From: Sulfuriferula sp. AH1
GTDB taxonomy: Bacteria > Pseudomonadota > Gammaproteobacteria > Burkholderiales > Sulfuriferulaceae
Direction of reading: 5' to 3'
NCBI RefSeq assembly: GCF_002162035.1
Contig: NZ_CP021138.1
Coordinates: 868,001-932,000, forward strand
DNA: 64,000 nt
In this document: positions 19,507-31,618 of the stretch, one piece after another
Position numbering within the stretch: position 1 is the stretch's first letter
Layout: every line of letters begins with the position of its first letter
Position numbers and translations under genes: made by a program
The notes under the pieces: generated by a model
Seen by the model: only the letters and a program-made list of their open reading frames with translations
Database searches by the model: none
Told to the model about the DNA's origin: nothing

Positions 19507-21180
19507 TCAGTTGCCCGTGTTTGTCGTCAGCCGGTTGGCACCGCTCACCAGCGCCTTGATCGAGGCGGTCACGATATTGCCGTCCATGCCCGCGCCATAA
19601 CATGCATGGCTGCGGCCGGGCGCTGATACTTCCATGAATGCGCAGGCCTGTGCATCGCTGCCGGCACTGTCGCCCATCGAGCGCTCTTCGTAGCTGCATA
19701 CCTGCAGTTCGATATCGAGGCTGCGCAGCGCGTGAATGGCGGCATCGATCGGGCCGTTGCCTTCTCCGGTGAGTACATGGCTTGTGCCGTTTATTTCCAC
19801 ACTCAGGCGGATGCCCTGTGCAGCGCCGTGTTCGAACAGGTGGTGTTCGACATAGCTTAATGGCTGGCCGGCGGCGAGATAGGTCTGCGCGAACAATTGC
19901 CAGATGTCGGCGGCGCTCATTTCTCCGCCGTGTTCATCTACATGGCGCTGCACCGCGCCGGAAAACTCGACCTGCAGGCGGCGCGGCATCACTATGCCGT
20001 ATTCGGTTTCCAGCAGATAAGCGATGCCGCCCTTGCCGGACTGGCTGTTGACCCGAATTACGGAATCGTAGCTGCGGCCCACATCGGCGGGGTCGATGGG
20101 CAGGTAGGGGACGTTCCACAGCGCATCCGGCTGTTGCGCGGCGAAACCTTTCTTGATCGCATCCTGGTGCGAGCCGGAAAAGGCGGTGAACACCAGATCG
20201 CCGACGTAGGGATGGCGCGGATGGATCGGCATCTGGTTGCAGTATTCCACGGTACGCGCCACCGCGTTGATGTCGGAAAAATCGAGGCCCGGCGATACCC
20301 CTTGCGTATAGAGATTAAGCGCCAGGGTGACGATATCGACGTTGCCGGTGCGTTCGCCGTTGCCGAAGAGACAGCCTTCGACGCGATCGGCGCCTGCCAT
20401 CAAGCCCAGTTCGGCTGCGGCCACTGCGGTGCCGCGGTCGTTGTGCGGATGCAGGCTGAGGATGATGCTGTTGCGGCGTGCAAGGTGGCGATGCATCCAC
20501 TCGATCTGGTCGGCGTACACGTTCGACGTCGCCATTTCCACGGTGGTCGGCAAATTGAGGATGACCTTGTTGTCCGGCGTCGCACCCCAGGCGGCAGTCA
20601 CTGCATCGCAGACTTCGAGCGCGAAATCCGGTTCTGTGGCGGTGAAGGTTTCCGGGCTGTATTCCAGCACCCATTCGGTTTCCGGCTGTTCGGCGGCCAG
20701 TTGCCTGATTAGCAGTACGGCGGAAACGGCCATTTCCACCACCTCAGCCTTGCTCATGGCGAATACGATGTCGCGGAACGGCTTCGACGTGGCGTTATAG
20801 ACGTGAACGATGGCCCGGCGCGCGCCTCTGAGCGATTCCATGGTGCGGCGGATCAGGTGCTCGCGCGCCTGGGTGAGCACCTCGATGGTGACGTCGTCGG
20901 GAATGTGGCCGCCCTCGATGATATTGCGCACGAAATCGAAATCGGTCTGCGAGGCGGAAGGGAAGGCGACCTCGATCTCCTTGAAGCCGATGGCGCACAG
21001 CGTACGGAACATGCGCATCTTGCGTTCACCATTCATCGGTTCGAACAGCGACTGATTGCCGTCGCGCAGATCGGTGCTCATCCACACCGGCGGTGCGGTG
21101 ATGGTGCGGTTCGGCCACTGGCGGTCGGCGAGCCGGACTCGCGGAAAAGGGGCGTATTTGCTGGACGGGTCTGGCAACAT
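19507..21180 (-). CDS. leuA: 2-isopropylmalate synthase
   Basis: This 557-residue enzyme makes 2-isopropylmalate from acetyl-CoA and 2-oxoisovalerate, the first step of leucine synthesis. Length and N terminus ([19 protein letters not shown]) match the longer LeuA type 2 family. Catalytic-domain motifs are [28 protein letters not shown] (metal His) and [10 protein letters not shown]. The C-terminal LeuA dimer domain, the leucine feedback site, begins near residue 440. An AT-rich 153-base gap separates it from a divergent Lrp-type regulator, a plausible controller. No leucine-rich leader peptide was seen. Confidence 0.95.
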
Positions 21181-21333
21181 GATGCTGGCTCCTGCGACTG
21201 TAATCGATGGGAGGAATGTTACGCAAAACCGTCCGGCATGTGCTTGCGTTTTTATGTATTAAATGAGTATAAATAAGCATAAAATTGCGTTATATTTATA
21301 ATTATTTAAATTAAATTCTGTTTATTTAAAATT

Positions 21334-21816
21334 ATGAGCAATAATATTGAAATTGACAGATATGATCGGCAGATTCTGCGGCTATTGCAGCAGGAGGGGC
21401 GCCTCAGCAATCAGGAGCTGGCCGATCGCATCGGCCTGTCGCCATCGCCCTGTCTGCGACGGGTGCGTGCGCTGGAAGAGTCCGGCTTCATTACCGGTTA
21501 TCGTGCGCTGGTGGATGCCAAGGCGCTGGGCTTGTCGCTGATGGCGTTGATTCATATTTCCATGGATCAGCACACGCCGGAGCGTTTCGATCGGTTTGAA
21601 ACGGCAATCGGCGAGATTCCAGAAGTCCTGGAATGTCTCCTGATTACCGGGCAGGATGCGGATTATCAGCTCAAGGTGGTGGTGAAGGACATGGACGCGT
21701 ATCAAGAGCTGTTGCTGAACCGCATCAACCGCATCCCGGGGGTGACCGGCGTGCATTCGAGCTTTGTGCTGCGGCGGGTGGTGGACAAGACAGCACTTGA
21801 TGTCGGGGAGAAATAG
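21334..21816 (+). CDS. Lrp/AsnC-family transcriptional regulator
   Basis: This 160-residue protein has the N-terminal winged helix of the family (DRYDRQILRLLQQEG, then LADRIGLSPSPCLRRVRALE) and a C-terminal RAM/AsnC ligand-binding domain (VLECLLITGQDADYQLKVVV). It resembles Lrp-like regulators responding to amino acids. It is divergent from leuA across a very AT-rich spacer, so control of leuA and of itself is likely but unproven. Confidence 0.93.
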   Translation: MSNNIEIDRYDRQILRLLQQEGRLSNQELADRIGLSPSPCLRRVRALEESGFITGYRALVDAKALGLSLMALIHISMDQHTPERFDRFETAIGEIPEVLECLLITGQDADYQLKVVVKDMDAYQELLLNRINRIPGVTGVHSSFVLRRVVDKTALDVGEK

Positions 21817-21834
21817 CAGTGCTGGCAGGCAGCG

Positions 21835-22242
21835 TTAATGCGTGCGTCTGACCGGGATAAAGAAATCGGGCGTCATATGCCAGTATTCGGCAATTTCGGT
21901 AGCGCGTTGCAGGTCTTCCGGATGGACGAAAACCTGCATGTGGCTGTGATGCTCATGTGCCCAGGCGTTAAATGCCTGCCAGCGCCGGCCGCAGGATTCT
22001 TCGCCTAGATCGGTGCTGACTTCAACGACGCCAAGGATCTGTTCATCGCCTGGCCTGCCAGAGGCGACGATATCGGGACGCATATGGACATTCAGTACGG
22101 GTATGACCAATTCATCAGGCTCTTTGTAGCCGGCAAGATCCTGTACGGCCATGGGTTGATAACCTTGGGTTTTAAGGATGCCGATCGCGTCGCTGAGTAG
22201 CGCTTCGCGCTCACGCTGTACTGCATTGGGAAGGGTATGCAT
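21835..22242 (-). CDS. Uncharacterised protein
   Basis: This 135-residue soluble protein matches no family I recognise with confidence. ATG at 22242 is preferred over a TTG two codons upstream because AGGAG lies 7 bases before it. The central part (MRPDIVASGRPGDE, then GVVEVSTD) has an Asp...Glu-x-Ser spacing reminiscent of a PD-(D/E)XK-like core, but this is only a pattern resemblance and the usual Lys is missing. It lies between the Lrp regulator (convergent) and the slipin gene. Confidence 0.6.
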   Translation of the reverse strand: MHTLPNAVQREREALLSDAIGILKTQGYQPMAVQDLAGYKEPDELVIPVLNVHMRPDIVASGRPGDEQILGVVEVSTDLGEESCGRRWQAFNAWAHEHHSHMQVFVHPEDLQRATEIAEYWHMTPDFFIPVRRTH

Positions 22243-22492
22243 GGTCAATCTCCTGAAGAAAAATATTAACCGCTACAATTATTTATAGCATATTAATGCG
22301 GATTTCATAGTGAGGATTGCAAGCAAGCCGGGGAAATTGACGTGAACCGGGAAACACGCTAAACCGATGAAAGCTGCTTGGCAACAGCGGCTCAGGCTAC
22401 GCATGCTTGCGGATTCCGCGAATGGGCCTATAGTCATTATAGGGACGGGCATCGGTTGACGCAGGATGCGCCGCGTACGAGGGGGAAGCAAA

Positions 22493-23278
22493 ATGGCTTG
22501 GGAGACTGGTTCGATGAGCGCTTTTATACTGTTGTTGCTGATAGCTGCGTTGTCCGGCTCCGCCGTCCGTGTTTTTCGCGAATATGAGCGCGGCGTGATT
22601 TTTACCCTCGGGCGTTTCTGGAAGGTAAAGGGACCGGGACTGGTGATCGTGATTCCGGTGTTCCAGCAGGCGGTAAGGGTTGATCTGCGTACCGTGGTGC
22701 TGGAGGTGCCTACCCAGGATGTAATCTCGCGCGACAATGTTTCGGTCAAGGTCAGCGCTGTGGTCTATCTGCGCGTTGTCGATCCGCAGAAGGCCATCAT
22801 TCAGGTGGTCGATTTCTTGAATGCTACCAGTCAGCTGGCGCAGACGACCTTGCGCTCGGTATTGGGCAAGCATCTGCTGGATGACATGCTGGCGGAACGC
22901 GAGAAACTGAATCTGGATATCCAGCAGGCGCTGGATGCGCAAACTGATACCTGGGGCATCAAGGTTTCCAATGTCGAGATCAAGCAGGTGGATCTGACTG
23001 AATCCATGATACGGGCGATAGCCCGGCAAGCCGAGGCGGAACGTGAACGGCGTGCCAAAGTCATTCACGCCGAGGGCGAATTGCAGGCCTCGGAAAAACT
23101 GTTCCAGGCGGCAGCGGTGCTGGCGCAAGAGCCGCAGGCCATCCTGTTGCGTTATCTGGAAACGCTGACCGTGATCGGCGCGGACAAGAACACCACGGTC
23201 GTGTTTCCCCTACCGATGGATCTCGTCACACCCTTTTTGAAAAAAGCGGATCCGCAAGCGGGCAAAGCACCCTCCTGA
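22493..23278 (+). CDS. Slipin (SPFH/band 7 membrane protein)
   Basis: This 261-residue protein has an N-terminal hydrophobic anchor followed by the stomatin-like SPFH domain ([23 protein letters not shown], in two conserved blocks, then [20 protein letters not shown]) and a C-terminal helical part rich in Ala, Glu and Arg ([19 protein letters not shown]). Such proteins form membrane scaffolds. Bacterial slipins usually pair with an NfeD gene; none is next to this one. ATG at 22493 has a weak GGGGAA site; 22514 is an alternative. Confidence 0.88.
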
Positions 23279-23310
23279 GCCATGAGCGCTTGCAGTACAT
23301 AAGTCAGGGG

Positions 23311-24489
23311 TTATTCGGCTTCCACATAATCAATCGTAAGCAGATCAGGCGTGACGGCACGCAATGCCTTGTCCATGAAACGCAAATGTGCCGGATTTGT
23401 GCGGTAATGGTCTGCCACTGCCTGACTGGCAAAGCGTATCAGCCAGCAGTAACGCAAACTGCCGTCGGGCTGCAGCGATTTGCCGGTCCTGACCGTGCGT
23501 ATCCCCGGCACGGCGCTTAGCGTCTCCTGGCCGCGCAGCATGGTCGCGGTGGTCTCGCTCTCAGCCATTTTTTCCGGCGCATTGTAAAAAGCTATCTGTT
23601 CGACTTCACGCCAGGGACGGCACTGTTTCAGCACTTCGGCTGCCCGTCCGCCGCTGCCCCAGAGCCGGATCATGCGTTCGATCTCGGTGCCGATGGCATC
23701 GCGCACGCCCGCAGTCAGCTGCGGGTAGCTGCCTTTTGGATGCTCTTTCAGCTGCGCGCGGATGCAAGCACCTGCGACATCAGCCAGCCCGGTGTAATAG
23801 TTGATTTTCGCCACGCCGTGCGCAATCAGTTTTCTGAATTGGTCGTCGGTCAGGCCGGTGCCGCCATGTATGACCAGCGGAATGCCTACCGCCTCGCTGA
23901 TCTTCGACAGGCGGGTTATGTCCAGTTTGGGCGTGCCGTGCGCCAGGCCATGCACGGTGCCGATGGATACGGCGAGGCAGTCCACACCTGTGCGTTCGAC
24001 GAAAGCTTTCGCTTCCGCAGGCAAGGTGTAGGCGATATCGCCTGTGTGTTTGTTGTCGCCGTTTTCAGCCCAGGGTACATAACCCAGCTCCCCTTCTACC
24101 GCCACACCGCAGGCGTGCGCCATGTCGGTGACTTCCCGGGTGCAGCGCAGATTCTCGTCCAGCGGCAGGGCGGAGGCGTCTATCATGACCGCGTTGCAGC
24201 CTGATTTGATGCCATGGACGGCAGATTTCATGCTGGTGCCGTGATCGAGGTTGATCGCCACCGGTACTGCGGCGCGCTGTGCACCAACGACCGCGGCTGC
24301 AATCAGCATTTCAAAATTGTAATGCTCGAGATGGGATTCCGGCAGGTTGAGCACTACCGGCGCGCGGCAAGCTTCGGCTGCTGTCAGTACACCCTCAAGA
24401 AAATCGAAGTTTGCCACATTGAAAGCGCCCACCGCGTAGCCGTGACGGTAAGCGTGGTTGAGCATGTCGGCCATGTGGACTAACGCCAT
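23311..24489 (-). CDS. Class II fructose-bisphosphate aldolase-like enzyme fused to a Dabb domain
   Basis: Residues 1 to about 290 form a class II (zinc) aldolase barrel: NLDHGTS with D82 and H83, GELGYV, GTVHGL with H180, IHGGTGL with H208, and KINYYTGL phosphate site. Such enzymes cleave or make fructose 1,6-bisphosphate (or tagatose bisphosphate). Residues about 297-392 resemble a stress-responsive A/B-barrel (Dabb) domain (SAVPGIRTVRTG, YRTNPAHLRFMD, DYVEAE). Standard class II aldolases lack this tail. A strong AAGGAGT site precedes the ATG. The nearby cbb operon suggests a Calvin-cycle role, but it is a separate transcription unit. Confidence 0.82.
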   Translation of the reverse strand: MALVHMADMLNHAYRHGYAVGAFNVANFDFLEGVLTAAEACRAPVVLNLPESHLEHYNFEMLIAAAVVGAQRAAVPVAINLDHGTSMKSAVHGIKSGCNAVMIDASALPLDENLRCTREVTDMAHACGVAVEGELGYVPWAENGDNKHTGDIAYTLPAEAKAFVERTGVDCLAVSIGTVHGLAHGTPKLDITRLSKISEAVGIPLVIHGGTGLTDDQFRKLIAHGVAKINYYTGLADVAGACIRAQLKEHPKGSYPQLTAGVRDAIGTEIERMIRLWGSGGRAAEVLKQCRPWREVEQIAFYNAPEKMAESETTATMLRGQETLSAVPGIRTVRTGKSLQPDGSLRYCWLIRFASQAVADHYRTNPAHLRFMDKALRAVTPDLLTIDYVEAE

Positions 24490-24607
24490 GAGTACTCCTT
24501 AAGGCTCGTTAACGAAATAATCGGAACAAACTTTGCCGTGCATTCTCTATACATTCAAAAACGTGTATCGTATTCCTCGAGGAGACGTTCCTAAAGGAGA
24601 TGCTCTT

Positions 24608-25009
24608 ATGGAAATTACCTGCTACCGCAATCCGGAAGTGAGCCGGGAGCCGGGTCAATTGGCTGCGGCTACTTACAATCTCGCTCACACGCTGCTGTCA
24701 CGCAGTGCCACAGGTAATCTGTTCATTCCTATTCGCGCCATGCAATATCTGGCGATTCTGGACGAGGAAGAGCTGGTGTTTCTGGACGGCGTACATAAAT
24801 GCTGGATCGATGTGGCCTGGCGTCATTTCCGTCCTCAGACCAGAGTTTCGCTGGCAGACCCGGTGACATACGAAGCGGTTTATTACTCCGGCAACGCTAA
24901 AAATATCGCGTTGCGTTTGCAGGCCGAACTGCCGAGGGCGTTGCATGCGCTGGAAAACAAATCACGAATCGATGCTCCCGCGCGCGTGTTCAAATTCCCG
25001 GCGCCCTAG
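24608..25009 (+). CDS. Uncharacterised protein near the cbb operon
   Basis: This 133-residue soluble protein has no family I recognise. ATG at 24608 is chosen because AAAGGAG lies 8 bases upstream; the longer in-frame start at 24533 adds residues without a ribosome site. The sequence alternates predicted beta (NLFIPIRAMQYLAILDEEELVFLDG) and mixed segments with VTYEAVYYSG. It is divergent from the aldolase-Dabb gene and ends 3 bases from the convergent 100-residue gene of the cbb operon, so a link with carbon fixation is possible. Confidence 0.65.
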   Translation: MEITCYRNPEVSREPGQLAAATYNLAHTLLSRSATGNLFIPIRAMQYLAILDEEELVFLDGVHKCWIDVAWRHFRPQTRVSLADPVTYEAVYYSGNAKNIALRLQAELPRALHALENKSRIDAPARVFKFPAP

Positions 25010-25012
25010 CGT

Positions 25013-25315
25013 TTACTCGTCTTCATCCAGTTCCGCATTCCAGCCTTCGTTGCGTGCGGTGGTGATGGCCCGCGCATACAGTTGGGTATGCTTGTCGCGC
25101 AGCTCGTCGGGCAGACGGCTTGGCAGGTGGGCGTAGGGCTCCCAGGCGGCATAGACCTGCTCATAAAGGTTCTGCATGCGTGCCGAATCCCAGCCTTCGC
25201 AGGTTTCGGTTTCGGGAATGATGCCGAAAACCCATGCATCGCGCACTATGCGCCCCAGGTGGGTCAATCCGCCATTGGTGTCCTTGTCGACACCTGCATA
25301 TGTTTGTACTGTCAT
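25013..25315 (-). CDS. Small uncharacterised protein at the end of the cbbLSQO operon
   Basis: This 100-residue acidic soluble protein overlaps the cbbO stop by four bases (ATGA), which implies translational coupling. It has a conserved-looking core (GRIVRDAWVFGIIPETETC, then GWDSARMQNLYEQVYAAWEPY) and an acidic C terminus ending ELDEDE. I recall similarly placed small genes after cbbO in some autotrophs, but no function is known to me. A partner or adaptor of the CbbQ-CbbO activase is the simplest idea. Confidence 0.72.
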   Translation of the reverse strand: MTVQTYAGVDKDTNGGLTHLGRIVRDAWVFGIIPETETCEGWDSARMQNLYEQVYAAWEPYAHLPSRLPDELRDKHTQLYARAITTARNEGWNAELDEDE

Positions 25316-27639
25316 CGTGTCAGTCCTGCGTAAAGTACCGGCAATTTCTCCGGCAATCGTTCAACATGATCCACGACCATGTAATTGCGCGCGCCAAAAA
25401 TACGCGATACGTACTGGTCGGCACGCGGGTCGAGGCTCATGCAATAAGTAGTGACACCGGCGCGGGCGACTTCTTCTACCGCTTTCTTGGTATCGAAACG
25501 CAGGTATTGCGGGTCGCGCACATCGATGTCCGCGGGTTCGCCATCGGTAATCACCAACAGCAGTTTCTTCGAAGACTTCTGCAGCTTCAAATAATGTCCG
25601 GCATGGCGTATGGCAGCGCCCATGCGCGTGGATAGCTGCCCGGTCATGCCCGCCAGTTTGGATTTGGGTACGTCATTATAAGGCTGATCGAAGTCCTTGA
25701 AGCGATAATACTCCACGTCGTGACGGCCATCCGAACAAAAACCGTGTATCGCGAACGGGTCGCCGATCTTGTGAATCGCGTCCGCCAGCAATACGGTAGC
25801 CTGGCGCGTCAGGTCGAGCACGCTGTAATCCTGCCCGGCGACTTTTTCGTTGGTGGATTCGGATAAATCCAGCAGCACCATCACCGAAATGTCGCGCACC
25901 TTGCGTACCGAGCGCATCATGATGCGCGTATCCGGCTGCATGCCCATGCGCATGTCGATCATCGAGCGCAGTGCGGCGTTGATGTCGATTTCGTCGCCGT
26001 CTTCCAGCTTGCGGATGCGCGTGACACCTTGCGGTTGCATCGCATCGAGCAGGAATTTGAGGCGGCCGATGGTGCGTTTATGCTGGGCGGTAATGTCATC
26101 GATGACCTGCATGTCACCGGATTTGGCGCGTTTTTCCAACACCGTGGCCCAGGTCGGGCGCTCGAGCTGGATCTGGTAATCCCATTCCGAATAGTGGAAA
26201 GGGGCGGCAGCGGGTTCCTTGCCCTCCATCTCGTTAAAACTGACGCCGGTGTCCTCGTACGGGAACAGCTCGGTACCGAGCACCCAGATTTCCTGTGCAT
26301 CGTCGCCGGCCAGTTCGCAATCTATCTCATTGGCCATTTCCATCACGCTGACGTATTTGCGTACTTGCTTGATGGATTCGTAGCCAGCCGATTGCGCCTT
26401 GTCGAAGTCGAATTCTTCGAACTCCCAGAAATAGCGGTTGTCGTCGCGGTACGGTGCTCTAAGCACGTCGGTCCGCGCGTTGAACGGAATGCGCAGCTGC
26501 GACAGTTCGTGCGCCAATGCAACGCCGATTTCCCACGAGATCGTGTTGTCGGCCAGGTATTCCTGCTGGGCTTTGAACAATGCACGTGCCTTGGCGATGA
26601 TGGGATGGCCGTCCTCGTAATCTGGATCGAGCAGCGCGCGTGCGATGCGATTGAGGTAGTCGCCCAGCGTCGCGGACTGATCCGGGGTAACGAAATGCAG
26701 CGATGCCCACAACTGGTTCAGGCCGGGGAAGGCGTTGATGGCGATCTGTTCTATCCGCGCATCCTCTATCACCGAGATCACCGCCATCTGCAACGGATTG
26801 AGGCTTTCGGCCGAAATCGGCGTGCGGGTATAGACTACGTGCGCGGCGCAATGGGCGGCGGTGGCGCGGTAGAGCTCCAGTCCGGAGATGCCTGCGACAT
26901 CGTCATAGGCGTCCGGTATGTAGATCAGGTAATTTTCAATGTATGGCTTGTAGCCTTCACGGTGCTCAAAGTCGCCGGAAGTAGGGCGCATGAAAAAGTC
27001 GCGGGCCCACAACGCACGCAAGTACATGTTGATGCGGCGCTGGATATCGACGAACAGCGTGCCCTTGCGCTCCTGTTGCAGCATGGCCTGCGATTCCTTG
27101 CTTTCCAGCCCGAAATAGCGTACTTGCTCGGGATAGTCGGTGCGGTGCGCCTGTGCACCCCACAGCGCCCAGCGGCGCAAGCCGCCCAGCGTCAGATTGC
27201 CCAGCAAGGTGTCGAGGTGGTCAAGCATCGGGCGCAAGCCGCGCGGTGCCTGCGATATCAGCAGGTTCAGCAATTGTAGATAGCCGCGGAATACCTGTTC
27301 GTCGCCGAGGCGCTTGGCAGCGATGGGCGCGGTGGAATATATCCGCTCGATCACCGCGCCGCTGGTCTTGGACGCCATCATCATGCCGGTCTGTATCAGA
27401 TCGGGAATGATGTCTTCGCCAATTTCCTTGGCCACGGCGGGGGTTTCCTGGATGTAGGCGACCACCAGATCGCAGCCGCGACCCAGATTCTTGAGCGAGC
27501 GGGCACCTGTCATGTAATTGTTCAGTCCCTGCGGGCTGAACACTTTGGTGGCTTCGTGCCAGGACGCTTCCAGTACGCCTCTGGATTGCTCCGAGAGTTC
27601 GCCGAGTGTGTCTTGATAGTCTTCGAGATTAATGCTCAT
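25312..27639 (-). CDS. cbbO: CbbO, von Willebrand factor A domain RuBisCO activase subunit
   Basis: This 775-residue protein works with the AAA+ ring CbbQ to remove inhibitory sugar phosphates from RuBisCO. The C-terminal VWA domain (from about residue 580) carries the MIDAS motif DLSEST (DxSxS) near residue 590, and later conserved ITDGEPADI. The large N-terminal part is helical and acidic. It is a NorD relative; the position next to cbbQ and cbbLS identifies it as CbbO. It starts 63 bases after cbbQ. Confidence 0.92.
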   Translation of the reverse strand: MSINLEDYQDTLGELSEQSRGVLEASWHEATKVFSPQGLNNYMTGARSLKNLGRGCDLVVAYIQETPAVAKEIGEDIIPDLIQTGMMMASKTSGAVIERIYSTAPIAAKRLGDEQVFRGYLQLLNLLISQAPRGLRPMLDHLDTLLGNLTLGGLRRWALWGAQAHRTDYPEQVRYFGLESKESQAMLQQERKGTLFVDIQRRINMYLRALWARDFFMRPTSGDFEHREGYKPYIENYLIYIPDAYDDVAGISGLELYRATAAHCAAHVVYTRTPISAESLNPLQMAVISVIEDARIEQIAINAFPGLNQLWASLHFVTPDQSATLGDYLNRIARALLDPDYEDGHPIIAKARALFKAQQEYLADNTISWEIGVALAHELSQLRIPFNARTDVLRAPYRDDNRYFWEFEEFDFDKAQSAGYESIKQVRKYVSVMEMANEIDCELAGDDAQEIWVLGTELFPYEDTGVSFNEMEGKEPAAAPFHYSEWDYQIQLERPTWATVLEKRAKSGDMQVIDDITAQHKRTIGRLKFLLDAMQPQGVTRIRKLEDGDEIDINAALRSMIDMRMGMQPDTRIMMRSVRKVRDISVMVLLDLSESTNEKVAGQDYSVLDLTRQATVLLADAIHKIGDPFAIHGFCSDGRHDVEYYRFKDFDQPYNDVPKSKLAGMTGQLSTRMGAAIRHAGHYLKLQKSSKKLLLVITDGEPADIDVRDPQYLRFDTKKAVEEVARAGVTTYCMSLDPRADQYVSRIFGARNYMVVDHVERLPEKLPVLYAGLTR

Positions 27640-27702
27640 ATTCTACCTGACGATGTGGGGCAGCGTGGAAGGTGGCGATGGCCACCAGCCTGCTGCGTAT
27701 GA

Positions 27703-28506
27703 CTAAAAGAATGTCGTAACGGCTGCATCCAGCGCATCGCGCATGTCGGGGTCATCCGTGATCGGACGCACCAGCGCCACGCGGCAGGCAGCCTGAGGAT
27801 TCACCCCAGTGGCGATCAGCGATCCGGCGTAGATCAGCATGCGGGTCGAGATGCCTTCGTCCAGTCCGTGGCCTTTCAGGTTGCGCGCACGTTCCGCAAT
27901 GGAGACCAGCTTGCCTGCGACTTCTGCGGACACGCCGGTTTCATGCGACACGATTTCAGTTTCGATGTCATGCGTCGGATAATTGAAATCCAGCGCGCCG
28001 AACCGTTGTTTGGTGGACTGTTTCAGATCCTTCATCAGGCTCTGGTAGCCCGGATTGTAGGAAATCACCAGTTGAAAATCGGGGTGCGCCTGTATCAGTT
28101 CGCCCTTCTTCTCCAGAGGCAGTACGCGACGTGCGTCGGTCAGCGGGTGGATTACCACGGTGGTGTCCTGACGGGCTTCCACGACTTCGTCCAGATAGCA
28201 AATCGCGCCATAACGGGCGGCGATGGCCAGCGGACCGTCTTGCCAGCGTGTGCCGGATGCATCCAGCAGAAAGCGACCGACCAGATCGGATGCTGTCATG
28301 TCCTCATTACAGGCTACCGTGATCAGGGGTTTTCCCAGCTTCCACGCCATGTGTTCCACAAAGCGGGTTTTGCCGCAACCGGTAGGGCCCTTCAGCATCA
28401 TGGGCATGCGCACGGCATAGGTGGCTTCGTACAGCTCTACCTCATCGGCGACAGGGCGGTAATAGGGTTCTTTCTCAATCAGGTACTGCTTGATGACGTC
28501 GTTCAT
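27703..28506 (-). CDS. cbbQ: CbbQ, MoxR-type AAA+ RuBisCO activase
   Basis: This 267-residue ATPase forms the hexameric motor of the CbbQO activase. Walker A is GPTGCGKT (residues 40-47); Walker B is [10 protein letters not shown]; the VISYNPGYQ sensor 1 region and the C-terminal CbbQ-type helical domain ([20 protein letters not shown]) follow. A GGAGCT ribosome site precedes ATG. A strong hairpin lies between cbbS and this gene, so it may be expressed less than RuBisCO itself. Confidence 0.95.
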
Positions 28507-28542
28507 CGTAGAGCTCCAGTTAATAACAACTCACAGAAACAG

Positions 28543-28573
28543 AGGCCTCCGCCCCTTGCGGATGCGGAGGCCT
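28543..28573 (-). terminator. Hairpin between cbbS and cbbQ (attenuator or mRNA stabiliser)
   Basis: A perfect 10-bp stem (AGGCCTCCGC at 28543-28552 with its complement at 28564-28573, 11-base loop) lies 26 bases past the cbbS stop. On the minus strand it is followed by a weakly U-rich stretch (CTGTTTCTG), so termination would be partial. It could set the high RuBisCO to low activase ratio or protect the cbbLS 3' end. Confidence 0.6.
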
Positions 28574-28599
28574 TGTGACGGTTCAACAGTGTTGCGGAC

Positions 28600-28956
28600 T
28601 TAAACAGTCTTGCCGCGGTAGATCACCATGGATGTGCCTTGGGATTGATTGAAGTTGTTGTAACCAATCAGGCGCACATGGTTATCAGGGTTGGCTTTGT
28701 GGCAAGCCAGTGCTTCAGCCAGCACGACGTTCACGTCGGTTTCGCCGAACATCGGCAGCTTCCACATGTACCAGTATGAGTCCATCAGGTATTGCGGTTC
28801 GATGTGCTCGATAGCCGGGTTCCAGCCTTTGGAAACCAGGTATTCCACCTGTTTTCTGATTTCGGCTTCGCTCATCGCAGGCAAGTAAGAGAAAGTCTCA
28901 AATTTGCGGCTGGCTGGATCGCTCAAGCGCGATTTGTAATCCATCACTTCATTCAT
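28600..28956 (-). CDS. cbbS: RuBisCO small subunit, form I
   Basis: This 118-residue small subunit caps the L8S8 enzyme. Family features are [19 protein letters not shown] at the N terminus, then [20 protein letters not shown] and a C-terminal [22 protein letters not shown] precedes the ATG. It follows cbbL after 88 bases with no terminator in between. Confidence 0.97.
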
Positions 28957-29044
28957 GATTCATCCTTTTTAAATCGATAGTTTCGTCAATTCCGCAACGG
29001 TAGCGGGCGATTAAGCCCAAGACCGCTGCAGAATCAGGGCATGC

Positions 29045-30466
29045 TTACTTGTGAGCAACGTCCAGCTTGTCGACAGTGTCGAACTCGAACTTGATTTCTT
29101 TCCATGTTTCCATGGCGATTTTCAATTCGGGGCTGCTTGCAGCTGCCTTGGTCAGGATCTCTTTGCCTTCCTTCTCAATGGCTACGCCCTGGTTGCGTGC
29201 TTCTACGCAAGCTTCCAGTGCCACGCGGTTAGCAGCTGCACCAGCCGCGTTACCCCATGGGTGGCCTAATGTACCGCCACCGAATTGCAATACGGAGTCA
29301 TCGCCGAAGATGTTGACCAGCGCCGGCATGTGCCAAACGTGAATACCGCCGGATGCAACCGGCAATACACCGGGCATGGAACCCCAGTCCTGATCGAAGA
29401 ACAGGCCGCGGCTGCGATCTTCCTTGATGAATTCGTCACGCATGGTGTCGATCCAGCCCAGAGTCGCTTCGCGGTCGCCTTCCAGTTTGCCGACAACGGT
29501 ACCGGAGTGCAGGTGATCACCACCCGACAGACGCAGAACCTTGGTCAGCACGCGGAAGTGGATACCGTGGTGCGGGTTGCGGTCGAGCACGGCGTGCATG
29601 GCGCGGTGGATGTGCAACAGCATGCCGTTGTTGCGGCACCAGTTAGCCAGACCTGTGTTGGCGGTCAAACCGCCGGTCAGGTAATCGTGCATGATGATCG
29701 GTGCGCCGATTTCCTTGGCGAACTCTGCACGCTTGTACATTTCTTCCGGTGTTGGCGCGGTAACGTTCAGGTAGTGGCCTTTGCGCTCGCCAGTTTCACG
29801 TTCAGCCTTCAATGTAGCTTCGTGCACGAATTCGAAACGATCGCGCCAACGCATGAACGGCTGGCTGTTGACGTTTTCGTCGTCCTTGGTGAAGTCCAGA
29901 CCGCCGCGCAAGCACTCGTAAACAGCGCGACCGTAGTTCTTCGCAGACAGACCCAGCTTGGGTTTGATGGTGCAACCCAGCAATGGACGGCCATACTTGT
30001 TCATTTTGTCGCGTTCGACCTGGATGCCTTGAGGAGGACCGCCGCAGGTTTTTACGTAAGCGATCGGGAAACGTACGTCTTCCAGACGCAATGCGCGCAA
30101 TGCCTTGAAACCGAATACGTTACCAACCAGCGAGGTCAGCACGTTAACGACGGAACCTTCTTCGAACAGGTCAATCGGATAAGCAACGAAAGCGTAGAAA
30201 CATGTGTCGTCGCCAGGTACGTCTTCTATGCGATAGGCGCGGCCTTTGTAGTAATCCAGATCGGTCAACAGGTCGGTCCACACGGTGGTCCAGGTACCGG
30301 TTGAAGACTCGGCAGCAACAGCAGCAGCAACTTCTTCGCGATCAACACCCGGTTGAGGGGTGATTTTGAAACAGGCGAGAATATCGGTATCCAGCGGCGT
30401 ATATTCCGGCGTCCAGTAAGTTGCGCGGTACTCTTTCACACCGGCGTTATATGATTTTACAGCCAT
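29045..30466 (-). CDS. cbbL: RuBisCO large subunit, form IA
   Basis: This 473-residue subunit fixes CO2 onto ribulose 1,5-bisphosphate. Active-site residues are K168 and K170 ([10 protein letters not shown]), the carbamylated K194 with D196 and E197 ([11 protein letters not shown]), HIHRAMHAV and the loop-6 Lys in [10 protein letters not shown]. The sequence is green-like form IA; no carboxysome genes follow, and the cbbQO genes downstream point to the non-carboxysomal (IAq) subtype. ATG at 30466 is chosen: AAAGGAGAA lies just upstream and [13 protein letters not shown] is the family N terminus, while the longer in-frame start runs into the promoter region. Confidence 0.98.
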
Positions 30467-30521
30467 TGAAATTCTCCTTTCAAGGTTGGGGCAATGTGCT
30501 TTCCTGTGAGGGGCAGCGTAT

Positions 30522-30551
30522 AGCTCAATTGAGCTTGATGTAAATATAGCA
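30522..30551 (-). promoter_or_regulatory. Candidate cbbL promoter with adjacent 14-bp palindrome
   Basis: On the minus strand an extended -10 element (TGCTATATT, 30551-30543) is followed about 8 bases later by a perfect 14-bp palindrome AGCTCAATTGAGCT (30535-30522), around the expected transcription start. The 84 bases upstream toward cbbR are very AT-rich, the usual place for CbbR binding, though no single clear LysR site stands out. The palindrome may be an operator or fold in the 5' leader. Confidence 0.45.
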
Positions 30552-30634
30552 GTCGATAACAATAAATAATAATTGTAATTTTGAATGTATATGATAGATT
30601 AATATCAATGAATGATTTTTTGATTGGAAGTAGG

Positions 30635-31618
30635 ATGAAGCATGCCACATTGCACCAGCTCAAGATATTCGAAGTGGTCGCGCGCAACCTGAGTTTCACT
30701 CGCGCCGCCGAAGAATTGCATCTCACCCAGCCCACGGTATCCATCCAGATAAAACAGCTGACGGATATCGTCGGAATGTCTTTGCTGGAACAGGTGGGAA
30801 AGCGCATTTTCTTGACAGAGGCCGGCCGCGAGCTGCTTACCGTATGTCATAGTCTGTTTGACGGACTGTCGCGATTCGAGATGATTATTTCCGACATGAA
30901 GGGCGTGAAAACAGGCAAGTTGCGGTTGGGCGTTATCACCACTGCAAAGTATTTCGTGCCGCGGCTGCTTGGACCGTTTTGCGATCGTTATCCGGGGATA
31001 GAAGTTTCGCTGAAAGTCACCAACCGCGAACGTCTGCTGCAACGTCTGATCGACAACGAAGACGATCTGTATATCCTCGGCCAGCCGCCCGAGCACATGG
31101 ATATATGGGTAGAGCCGTTTCTGGATAACCCTCTGGTTGTGCTCGCTCCATATAATCATCCGCTGGCGGGTGAGAAAAATATCTCCGCGGAACGCATTGC
31201 GCAGGAACCGTTCCTGATGCGCGAATCAGGCTCCGGCACGCGACTTGCTACCGAAAAGTTTTTCAATGAACGCGGGCTGTCGCTCAATGTGCGGATGGAA
31301 TTAGGCAGCAACGAAGCCATCAAGCAGGCCGTCGCCGGCGGTCTCGGCGTTGCGGTGCTGTCGGCGCATACGCTGGCGCTGGAAAAAAGCGGCGACGAAT
31401 TGGCTGTGCTCGATGTGGCGGGCTTCCCCATAATGCGTCAATGGCATGTGGCTTATTCCACAGGCAAGCAGCTGTCGGTGGTAGCGAGGACATTTCTGGA
31501 GTTCCTGCAACAAGAAAGCGGGCCCATGGCAGAGCGCTATATGAAGGGATTGAGCGGATTTCCGAGTCAGGCTGCCAGGAAAAGCGTAGCCAAATCCATG
31601 GCAAAGACAAATGACTGA
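30635..31618 (+). CDS. cbbR: LysR-type regulator of the Calvin cycle operon
   Basis: This 327-residue regulator has the N-terminal LysR helix-turn-helix (HQLKIFEVVARNLSFTRAAE, then LTQPTVSIQIKQL) and a periplasmic-binding-type effector domain; CbbR proteins sense metabolites such as RuBP or NADPH. Divergent placement from cbbL across a 168-base gap supports the assignment. ATG at 30635 with GGAAGTAGG upstream is preferred over 30581 and 30608. Confidence 0.93.
   Translation: MKHATLHQLKIFEVVARNLSFTRAAEELHLTQPTVSIQIKQLTDIVGMSLLEQVGKRIFLTEAGRELLTVCHSLFDGLSRFEMIISDMKGVKTGKLRLGVITTAKYFVPRLLGPFCDRYPGIEVSLKVTNRERLLQRLIDNEDDLYILGQPPEHMDIWVEPFLDNPLVVLAPYNHPLAGEKNISAERIAQEPFLMRESGSGTRLATEKFFNERGLSLNVRMELGSNEAIKQAVAGGLGVAVLSAHTLALEKSGDELAVLDVAGFPIMRQWHVAYSTGKQLSVVARTFLEFLQQESGPMAERYMKGLSGFPSQAARKSVAKSMAKTND

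Follow-up and report, generated by a model that had tools for sequence, protein, structure and literature searches.

What does a class II aldolase with a Dabb domain at its C terminus do beside a RuBisCO operon? The gene that raises this question lies in a 64,000-nucleotide stretch of Sulfuriferula sp. AH1 DNA (the window) and encodes a protein of 392 aa, P0001. As an earlier note on this DNA had observed, the gene adjoins a cbb operon: rbcL-rbcS-cbbQ-cbbO-ORF100 occupy positions 25013-30562 on the same strand, with ORF158 on the opposite strand in between. The names cbbO (25312..27639), cbbQ (27703..28506) and rbcS (28600..28956) are our assumption, assigned from the sequence. The features are:

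23311..24489, minus strand: aldolase-Dabb fusion gene P0001, 392 aa (open frame, Pfam, AlphaFold2)
23635..24489, minus strand: class II aldolase domain, residues 1-285 (PF01116, 276 bits; AlphaFold2 TIM barrel)
23323..23604, minus strand: Dabb domain, residues 296-389, Pfam envelope 309-389 (PF07876, 33 bits; tail profile; AlphaFold2)
24533..25009, plus strand: ORF158, conserved orphan divergent from the aldolase (homologues in 20 of 116 loci)
25013..25315, minus strand: ORF100, conserved orphan of 100 aa with a 4-base overlap with the cbbO stop (homologues in 34 of 116 loci)
25312..27639, minus strand: cbbO-like RuBisCO activase subunit (homologues in 56 of 116 loci; no NCBIfam match)
27703..28506, minus strand: cbbQ-like MoxR AAA+ subunit (GvpN/CobS-type matches below cut-off; homologues in 49 of 116 loci)
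28600..28956, minus strand: rbcS (homologues in 51 of 116 loci)
29045..30562, minus strand: rbcL, RuBisCO large subunit (NF003252, 800 bits)

ORF100 and ORF158 gave zero matches in Pfam or NCBIfam. Homologues of ORF100 lie on the aldolase strand in 35 of 35 cases and those of ORF158 on the opposite strand in 17 of 20; a protein of 117-168 aa upstream of the aldolase in 14 loci of other types resembles ORF158 by eye. Because ORF158 on the opposite strand parts the aldolase from ORF100, the aldolase-Dabb gene of the window probably has its own transcript. A promoter scan upstream of this gene returned 0 sites versus 1.0 expected, and no tandem repeats were found within window positions 21000-31000.

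P0001 is a single ATG-to-stop frame of 392 codons with zero internal stops. Its residues 5-282 match F_bP_aldolase (PF01116) with an E value of 5e-82 and 276 bits against a curated Pfam cut-off of 25.5. The Pfam search of the C terminus that the earlier note had proposed confirmed the Dabb domain: PF07876 matches residues 309-389 with 33 bits (curated cut-off 25), the tail searched alone scores 37 bits, and 57 of the 63 members of set A2 match this model at E ≤ 0.001. P0001 is the sole Dabb match in its genome. A profile from 11 related tails identified the Dabb-fold PDB chain 3bde (E 5e-9) as well as chains of olivetolic acid cyclase (E 3e-6), At3g17210 (E 0.004) and SP1 (E 0.015). The tail is like 3bde, olivetolic acid cyclase and SP1 in sequence and predicted topology; however, these are small proteins of 104-120 aa, whereas the Dabb domain of P0001 is fused to an aldolase. 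An AlphaFold2 model of the P0001 monomer (63-row alignment, mean pLDDT 92.1, pTM 0.91) displays two confident domains, a TIM barrel at residues ~1-285 and a beta-alpha-beta-beta-alpha-beta tail at 296-389, so that the boundary drawn in the earlier note, ~290 residues of aldolase followed by ~95 of Dabb, was correct to a few residues. A missed stop, an assembly error or another artefact is ruled out, since the fusion recurs across genomes. A table of the family was compiled from 132 sequences, which were reduced to 114 by removing 11 near-duplicates and 8 fragments (one row being both) and to 103 rows by leaving out 9 single-domain outgroups and 2 untabulated sequences. In 92 of the 103 rows, P0001 included, a single frame covers 70 or more of the 81 tail columns, a fraction that is inflated as most rows were fetched by a tail query. 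P0001 combines a class II aldolase and a genuine C-terminal Dabb domain in one protein.

The zinc site of the aldolase half had been described as complete, and the alignment bears this out: all seven class II positions checked in P0001 are present (D82, H83, E134, H180, H208, N230 and T233). By class II homology we take D82 to be the catalytic residue and H83, H180 and H208 to be zinc ligands. Five of these positions, placed by alignment, are encoded at:

24241..24246, minus strand: D82 and H83
24088..24090, minus strand: E134
23950..23952, minus strand: H180
23866..23868, minus strand: H208

Among the NCBIfam aldolase models P0001 passes only the broad ketose-bisphosphate aldolase subfamily TIGR00167 (224 versus 215.6 bits) and misses every listed FBP/TagBP aldolase equivalog, namely TIGR01859 (237.6 bits, cut-off 343.05), TIGR01858 (214.6, cut-off 443.55), TIGR01521 (105.7, cut-off 496.35) and NF005284 (271.3, cut-off 406). 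A fold search of the PDB, whose listing covers the barrel only, gave a VIA Z of 39.8 for SqiA (8q57), with YdjI and FBA on a par. GatY/KbaY, PRK06801, YdjI and SqiA have the fold and the metal site in common with P0001 (VIA Z 37-40), but they are single-domain enzymes with no Dabb domain and with their own substrates. No obvious RuBisCO-specific active-site signature emerged, because E51/H53 and the KIN[FY]YTG feature are common to the family and the single-domain outgroups L188 and L189; a signature for a new substrate was likewise rejected, as these outgroups carry the main motifs too.

The search for the same fusion, also proposed earlier, found the tail model in 54 of 276 class-level genomes. 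Form I RbcL is present in 117 of the 276 and both occur together in 50 (Fisher p 9e-18); the genomes are related and were treated as independent, therefore this and the following p value are descriptive. The best tail match lies in a frame of at least 361 aa in 45 of the 54 genomes and in shorter, mostly contig-edge frames in the other 9. Four tail-positive genomes have no form I RbcL: two of these have a RuBisCO that matches PF00016, and the other two, both fragmented drafts, gave no match. Conversely, 67 of the 117 form I RuBisCO-positive genomes have no tail. Within the form I RuBisCO-positive genomes, the tail accompanies CbbO (match above ~630 bits) in 44 of 83 genomes versus 6 of 34 without CbbO (p 4e-4). 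In an order-level sample of 100 genomes including that of the window, 21 encode a protein of the family, whether as a full fusion, with a short tail, without a tail or as a paralog; a RuBisCO large subunit (form I RbcL called at E ≤ 1e-60) occurs in 40, all 21 family carriers among them, and none of the 60 RuBisCO-less genomes carries the family. A single pattern scan of an 84,980-species collection, which is no census, yielded 40 loci, nearly all labelled Proteobacteria, with one contig labelled Gemmatimonadales and one 'Bacterium HR39'; two further full-length members outside the class were found in a 199-genome phylum sample. A virus-borne origin was discarded after a single pattern scan of viral contigs gave no relative. 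A plasmid-borne fusion was discarded as well: 87 plasmid records match, of which the best 15 show <41% identity and 2 cover at least 80% of the query.

For the gene neighbours we examined 120 loci, 116 of them with a readable aldolase (L177, L178, L184 and L185 were left out); these 116 include named and unnamed copies of some genomes, and many are cut by contig ends. Within 7 kb of the aldolase we found RbcL in 58 loci, CbbO in 56, a LysR/CbbR-type gene in 56, RbcS in 51, CbbQ in 49, ORF100 in 34, ORF158 in 20, a CbbX-like AAA gene in 12, a PurE-like gene in 9, a HAD phosphatase in 8 and CsoSCA in 7. Frequent gene orders are rbcL-rbcS-cbbQ-cbbO-(ORF100)-aldolase and rbcL-rbcS-cbbX-(small ORF)-aldolase. 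The neighbouring RuBisCOs comprise form IA, form II (one representative profiled, L049, NF010002, 890 bits), carboxysomal enzymes and a 55-57%-identical form I with CbbX, which we take to be the red type; the one CbbX-like neighbour profiled passed TIGR02880 with 527 bits. In L071 cbbO, a HAD phosphatase profiled as HAD-IA family and the aldolase stand in tandem with a 25-bp gap, and in L129 aldolase and HAD gene overlap by 4 bp. In an Acidihalobacter draft (L066:9306-10210, identical to the L160 sequence) the fusion appears split, by a sequence error or by real decay, into two overlapping frames next to rbcL-rbcS-cbbQ-cbbO, and the window's genome contains a third CbbO-like gene (G000:C1:1324041-1326113) with 40% identity to the window CbbO over residues 73-773. 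A neighbourhood of rbcL/rbcS and activase is conserved across distant taxa, as in a component of the RuBisCO operon; for 30 of the 103 rows in the table, the sequence that was read shows neither a RuBisCO nor an activase gene. In autotrophic Proteobacteria the aldolase-Dabb family is linked to RuBisCO and its activases.

Since the aldolase accompanies activases of both types, and a HAD phosphatase at some loci, clearance of RuBisCO misfire products is our leading mechanism for the intact members. The putative substrate would be a ketose bisphosphate that forms at RuBisCO, in the likeliest case an inhibitor from misfiring, for example xylulose-1,5-bisphosphate (XuBP), which CbbQO or CbbX would eject from the active site; the zinc-intact enzyme, the window's included, could then cleave XuBP to DHAP and glycolaldehyde phosphate. 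Dabb domains form dimers, and by analogy the tail may serve as a dimerisation or docking module. In several lineages catalysis would have been lost and the protein would have stayed as a binding partner associated with RuBisCO or its activase. We put this combined proposal forward tentatively, as plausible but somewhat short of probable. Sugar phosphates are released from RuBisCO by activases. XuBP and possibly pentodiulose bisphosphate are given as likely physiological RuBisCO inhibitors in the excerpted text of PMC8718961. Rabbit muscle FBP aldolase was used both to make and to assay XuBP according to the sections at hand of PMC11696622, which makes the destruction of XuBP by an aldolase reasonable in chemical terms. 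However, the product glycolaldehyde phosphate needs further handling, and the missing RuBisCO-specific signature in the active site, the many tail-less form I genomes and the rows without RuBisCO or activase in view all count against the proposal. The rabbit muscle aldolase of the XuBP assays, moreover, belongs to class I. Aldolases beside RuBisCO are common anyway, as the available part of PMC7895386 indicates.

A further difficulty for misfire clearance is the state of the active site across the family. A quick tree, in which several branches are long, separates the family from the outgroups at SH-aLRT 100, and parsimony needs 10 changes of active-site state on it. D82, H83, E134, H180 and H208 are all kept in 63 of the 103 rows. 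The full five-residue site is missing in 39 of 102 (L154, a truncated frame, being excluded from 40); for the zinc triad alone, 66 rows are intact and 37 are not (36 without L154), with all three ligands gone in 11. That 36-39 of 102 members should lose these residues and yet retain the gene is not what a purely catalytic role predicts. One clade of fused members (L126, L127, L130, L164, L165 and L173) has Gln at H180 with D82, H83, E134 and H208 intact; H180Q variants of H. pylori FBA are deposited in the PDB as 5ud1-5ud3, judging by their titles. The tail has also been lost in two groups of the family, and in two genomes of one genus (L085:6530-7645 and L091:7185-8306) the aldolase site is intact with the tail shortened to 56-58 of 81 columns; the L085 tail gave no Pfam Dabb match.

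We determined dN/dS by NG86 for pairs with a lost site and obtained nine values; three further pairs gave none because silent sites were saturated. Eight of the nine values lie at 0.03-0.28: tailless and zinc-less paralog pairs at 0.03-0.11 (0.047 and 0.031 for the former, 0.108 and 0.081 for the latter), carboxysomal fused pairs at 0.19-0.28 (0.28, 0.21 and 0.19) and the H180Q pair at 0.24. Site-intact pairs range over 0.07-0.15 (P0001/L036, 0.135). The ninth pair, L056/L059, in which H208 is lost, stands at 0.45, and uniform purifying selection on dead copies was rejected on its account. Judged by these ratios, most site-less members are not decaying and are kept by selection.

Since the zinc-less members show that something beyond catalysis is selected too, the main rival to misfire clearance is a structural or regulatory role: the protein would be a binding partner of RuBisCO, of CbbQO/CbbX or of the carboxysome, and the intact site would be ancestral or accessory. 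Besides the low dN/dS values, the predicted structure of the dead carboxysomal member L182 fits such a role, as both domains are preserved in its AlphaFold2 model (pLDDT 86.0); in L182 and L183 alike, the Pfam Dabb match falls short of significance. The full site is absent in 14 of 15 carboxysome-linked rows versus 16 of 58 other RuBisCO-linked rows and 10 of 30 rows with neither in view. In the window's genome, a zinc-less paralog of 320 aa directly follows cbbO in a carboxysome operon with RbcL, RbcS, CsoS2, CsoSCA, CsoS4A/B, CsoS1, bacterioferritin, acRAF, ParA, CbbQ and CbbO. CsoS2 matched two NCBIfam CsoS2 models below cut-off; the other gene names in this operon are presumptive, given from the sequence. 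At L076:13710-13949 a short in-frame aldolase remnant with a DHG motif, a decayed tandem copy, lies between cbbO and the zinc-less paralog. Nevertheless, the retention of five key residues in 63 rows is hard to explain without catalysis, the carboxysome correlation comes down to 4-5 phylogenetically independent pairs and is not significant, which also led us to reject carboxysome location as the cause of site loss, L056/L059 is under relaxed selection, and the tail is lost in two groups as well. We regard the purely binding role as possible but somewhat unlikely.

According to the earlier note, the fusion may serve to regulate or assemble a Calvin-cycle aldolase; the protein would then be a second FBP/SBP aldolase whose tail tunes oligomerisation or regulation. 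The intact class II site of the window copy is compatible with this, and so is its closest precedent in print. Esparza et al. (2010) assign, in their Table 3, Pfam01116 and Pfam07876 to cbbA of the A. ferrooxidans cbb1 operon (ACK80290.1, AFE_1676; PMC2942843). According to the sections of that paper at hand, cbb1 is one transcript by RT-PCR with cbbA last, after cbbQ1-cbbO1; the gene is named FBP aldolase with its tail uncommented, Pfam07876 occurs once in the text, and a second cbbA, in cbb3, is listed without Pfam07876 (PMC2942843). The earlier statement that no standard aldolase has this tail was therefore nearly right, except that the same Pfam pair had been listed for this gene (PMC2942843, in part). 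The A. ferrooxidans gene shares the pair but sits in a carboxysome operon, whereas in the window the gene neighbours an operon of the other type, from which the divergent ORF158 separates it. The name FBP aldolase for cbbA recurs in the available text of PMC6458275 and PMC2621215, and the operon span is named in that of PMC6450195. PF01116 is moreover enriched in Calvin-cycle genomes and aldolases often adjoin RuBisCO and Prk, in the excerpted text of the comparative study PMC7895386, which does not set the aldolase-Dabb family apart there.

Against this stands a separate FBA-type enzyme. The window's genome has three class II aldolases, the FBA type L002 (364-aa frame), P0001 and the 320-aa paralog. 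L002 belongs to the same Pfam family as P0001; however, identity is 43% over 216 residues only, and unlike P0001 it has insertions in the barrel and no tail. All 21 genomes of the 100-genome sample that bear the family also have a second aldolase, of FBA type as inferred from length and alignment, and therefore the P0001 family is unlikely to be the Calvin-cycle aldolase. The equivalog cut-offs are missed, and the active site is lost in many lineages while the neighbourhood persists. The recurrent neighbours are RuBisCO and activase, and an FBA-type aldolase was near the family gene in just 2 loci seen (L082 and L145). We therefore consider a second FBP/SBP aldolase improbable. The note's other suggestion, that the fusion may couple the enzyme to a different substrate, comes near to the misfire clearance that we prefer.

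Another sugar phosphate as substrate, in glycolaldehyde-phosphate or photorespiratory salvage or as a PurE-linked intermediate, is less probable still. A spacer of 10-11 bp separates the aldolase from an upstream gene that we take to be PurE-like in L039, L040, L041, L043 and L050 (labelled Gallionella, Gallionellaceae and Nitrosomonadales), and SqiA and YdjI, aldolases of other substrates, are among the closest folds; but PurE-like genes are near in 9 of 116 loci and the RuBisCO linkage is far broader. A bifunctional P0001, with a Dabb half that has a catalytic activity of its own in the manner of olivetolic acid cyclase, is very improbable, as the tail profile's match to the cyclase chains is at family level, glycine, proline and tryptophan make up most of the invariant tail residues, and no polyketide context was seen.

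We return to misfire clearance by the intact members together with a retained binding role in the others. As the catalytic site has been lost in several lineages yet selection persists, the family probably helps to look after RuBisCO, more than being another Calvin-cycle enzyme. Going further, the aldolase-Dabb protein might be an unrecognised third arm of RuBisCO maintenance, dedicated to clearing misfire sugar bisphosphates alongside inhibitor-ejecting activases and CbbY-type phosphatases, that several times turned into a pseudoenzyme still serving RuBisCO or the carboxysome; this putative wider picture is rather unlikely to hold in full. CbbY is the comparison that we assume for the HAD phosphatase neighbours (8 loci): such phosphatases are likewise proposed to act on RuBisCO misfire products, but fold and chemistry are unrelated and the analogy would be functional only. 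No treatment of the aldolase-Dabb family was found in our searches of open-licence PMC papers, and the part of a microcompartment survey at hand names no aldolase for carboxysome loci (PMC4207490). This combination of domains has been published before, in a table row that received no comment; its wide, activase-linked conservation and the repeated loss of catalysis appear to be undescribed in the papers searched.

Much research and engineering is devoted to RuBisCO and its helpers, and the work in PMC8718961, in its excerpted text, does not inform on the physiological inhibitors that CbbQO removes. Annotated as a plain FBP aldolase, the conserved aldolase-Dabb gene occurs next to every RuBisCO form observed here; it offers a tangible way to approach these inhibitors and may supply a part still missing when bacterial CO2 fixation is rebuilt elsewhere. 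The retention of zinc-less aldolases in carboxysome operons is a clear example of pseudoenzyme evolution. In many autotrophic bacteria RuBisCO is commonly accompanied by the class II aldolase-Dabb protein, a partner that has been overlooked.
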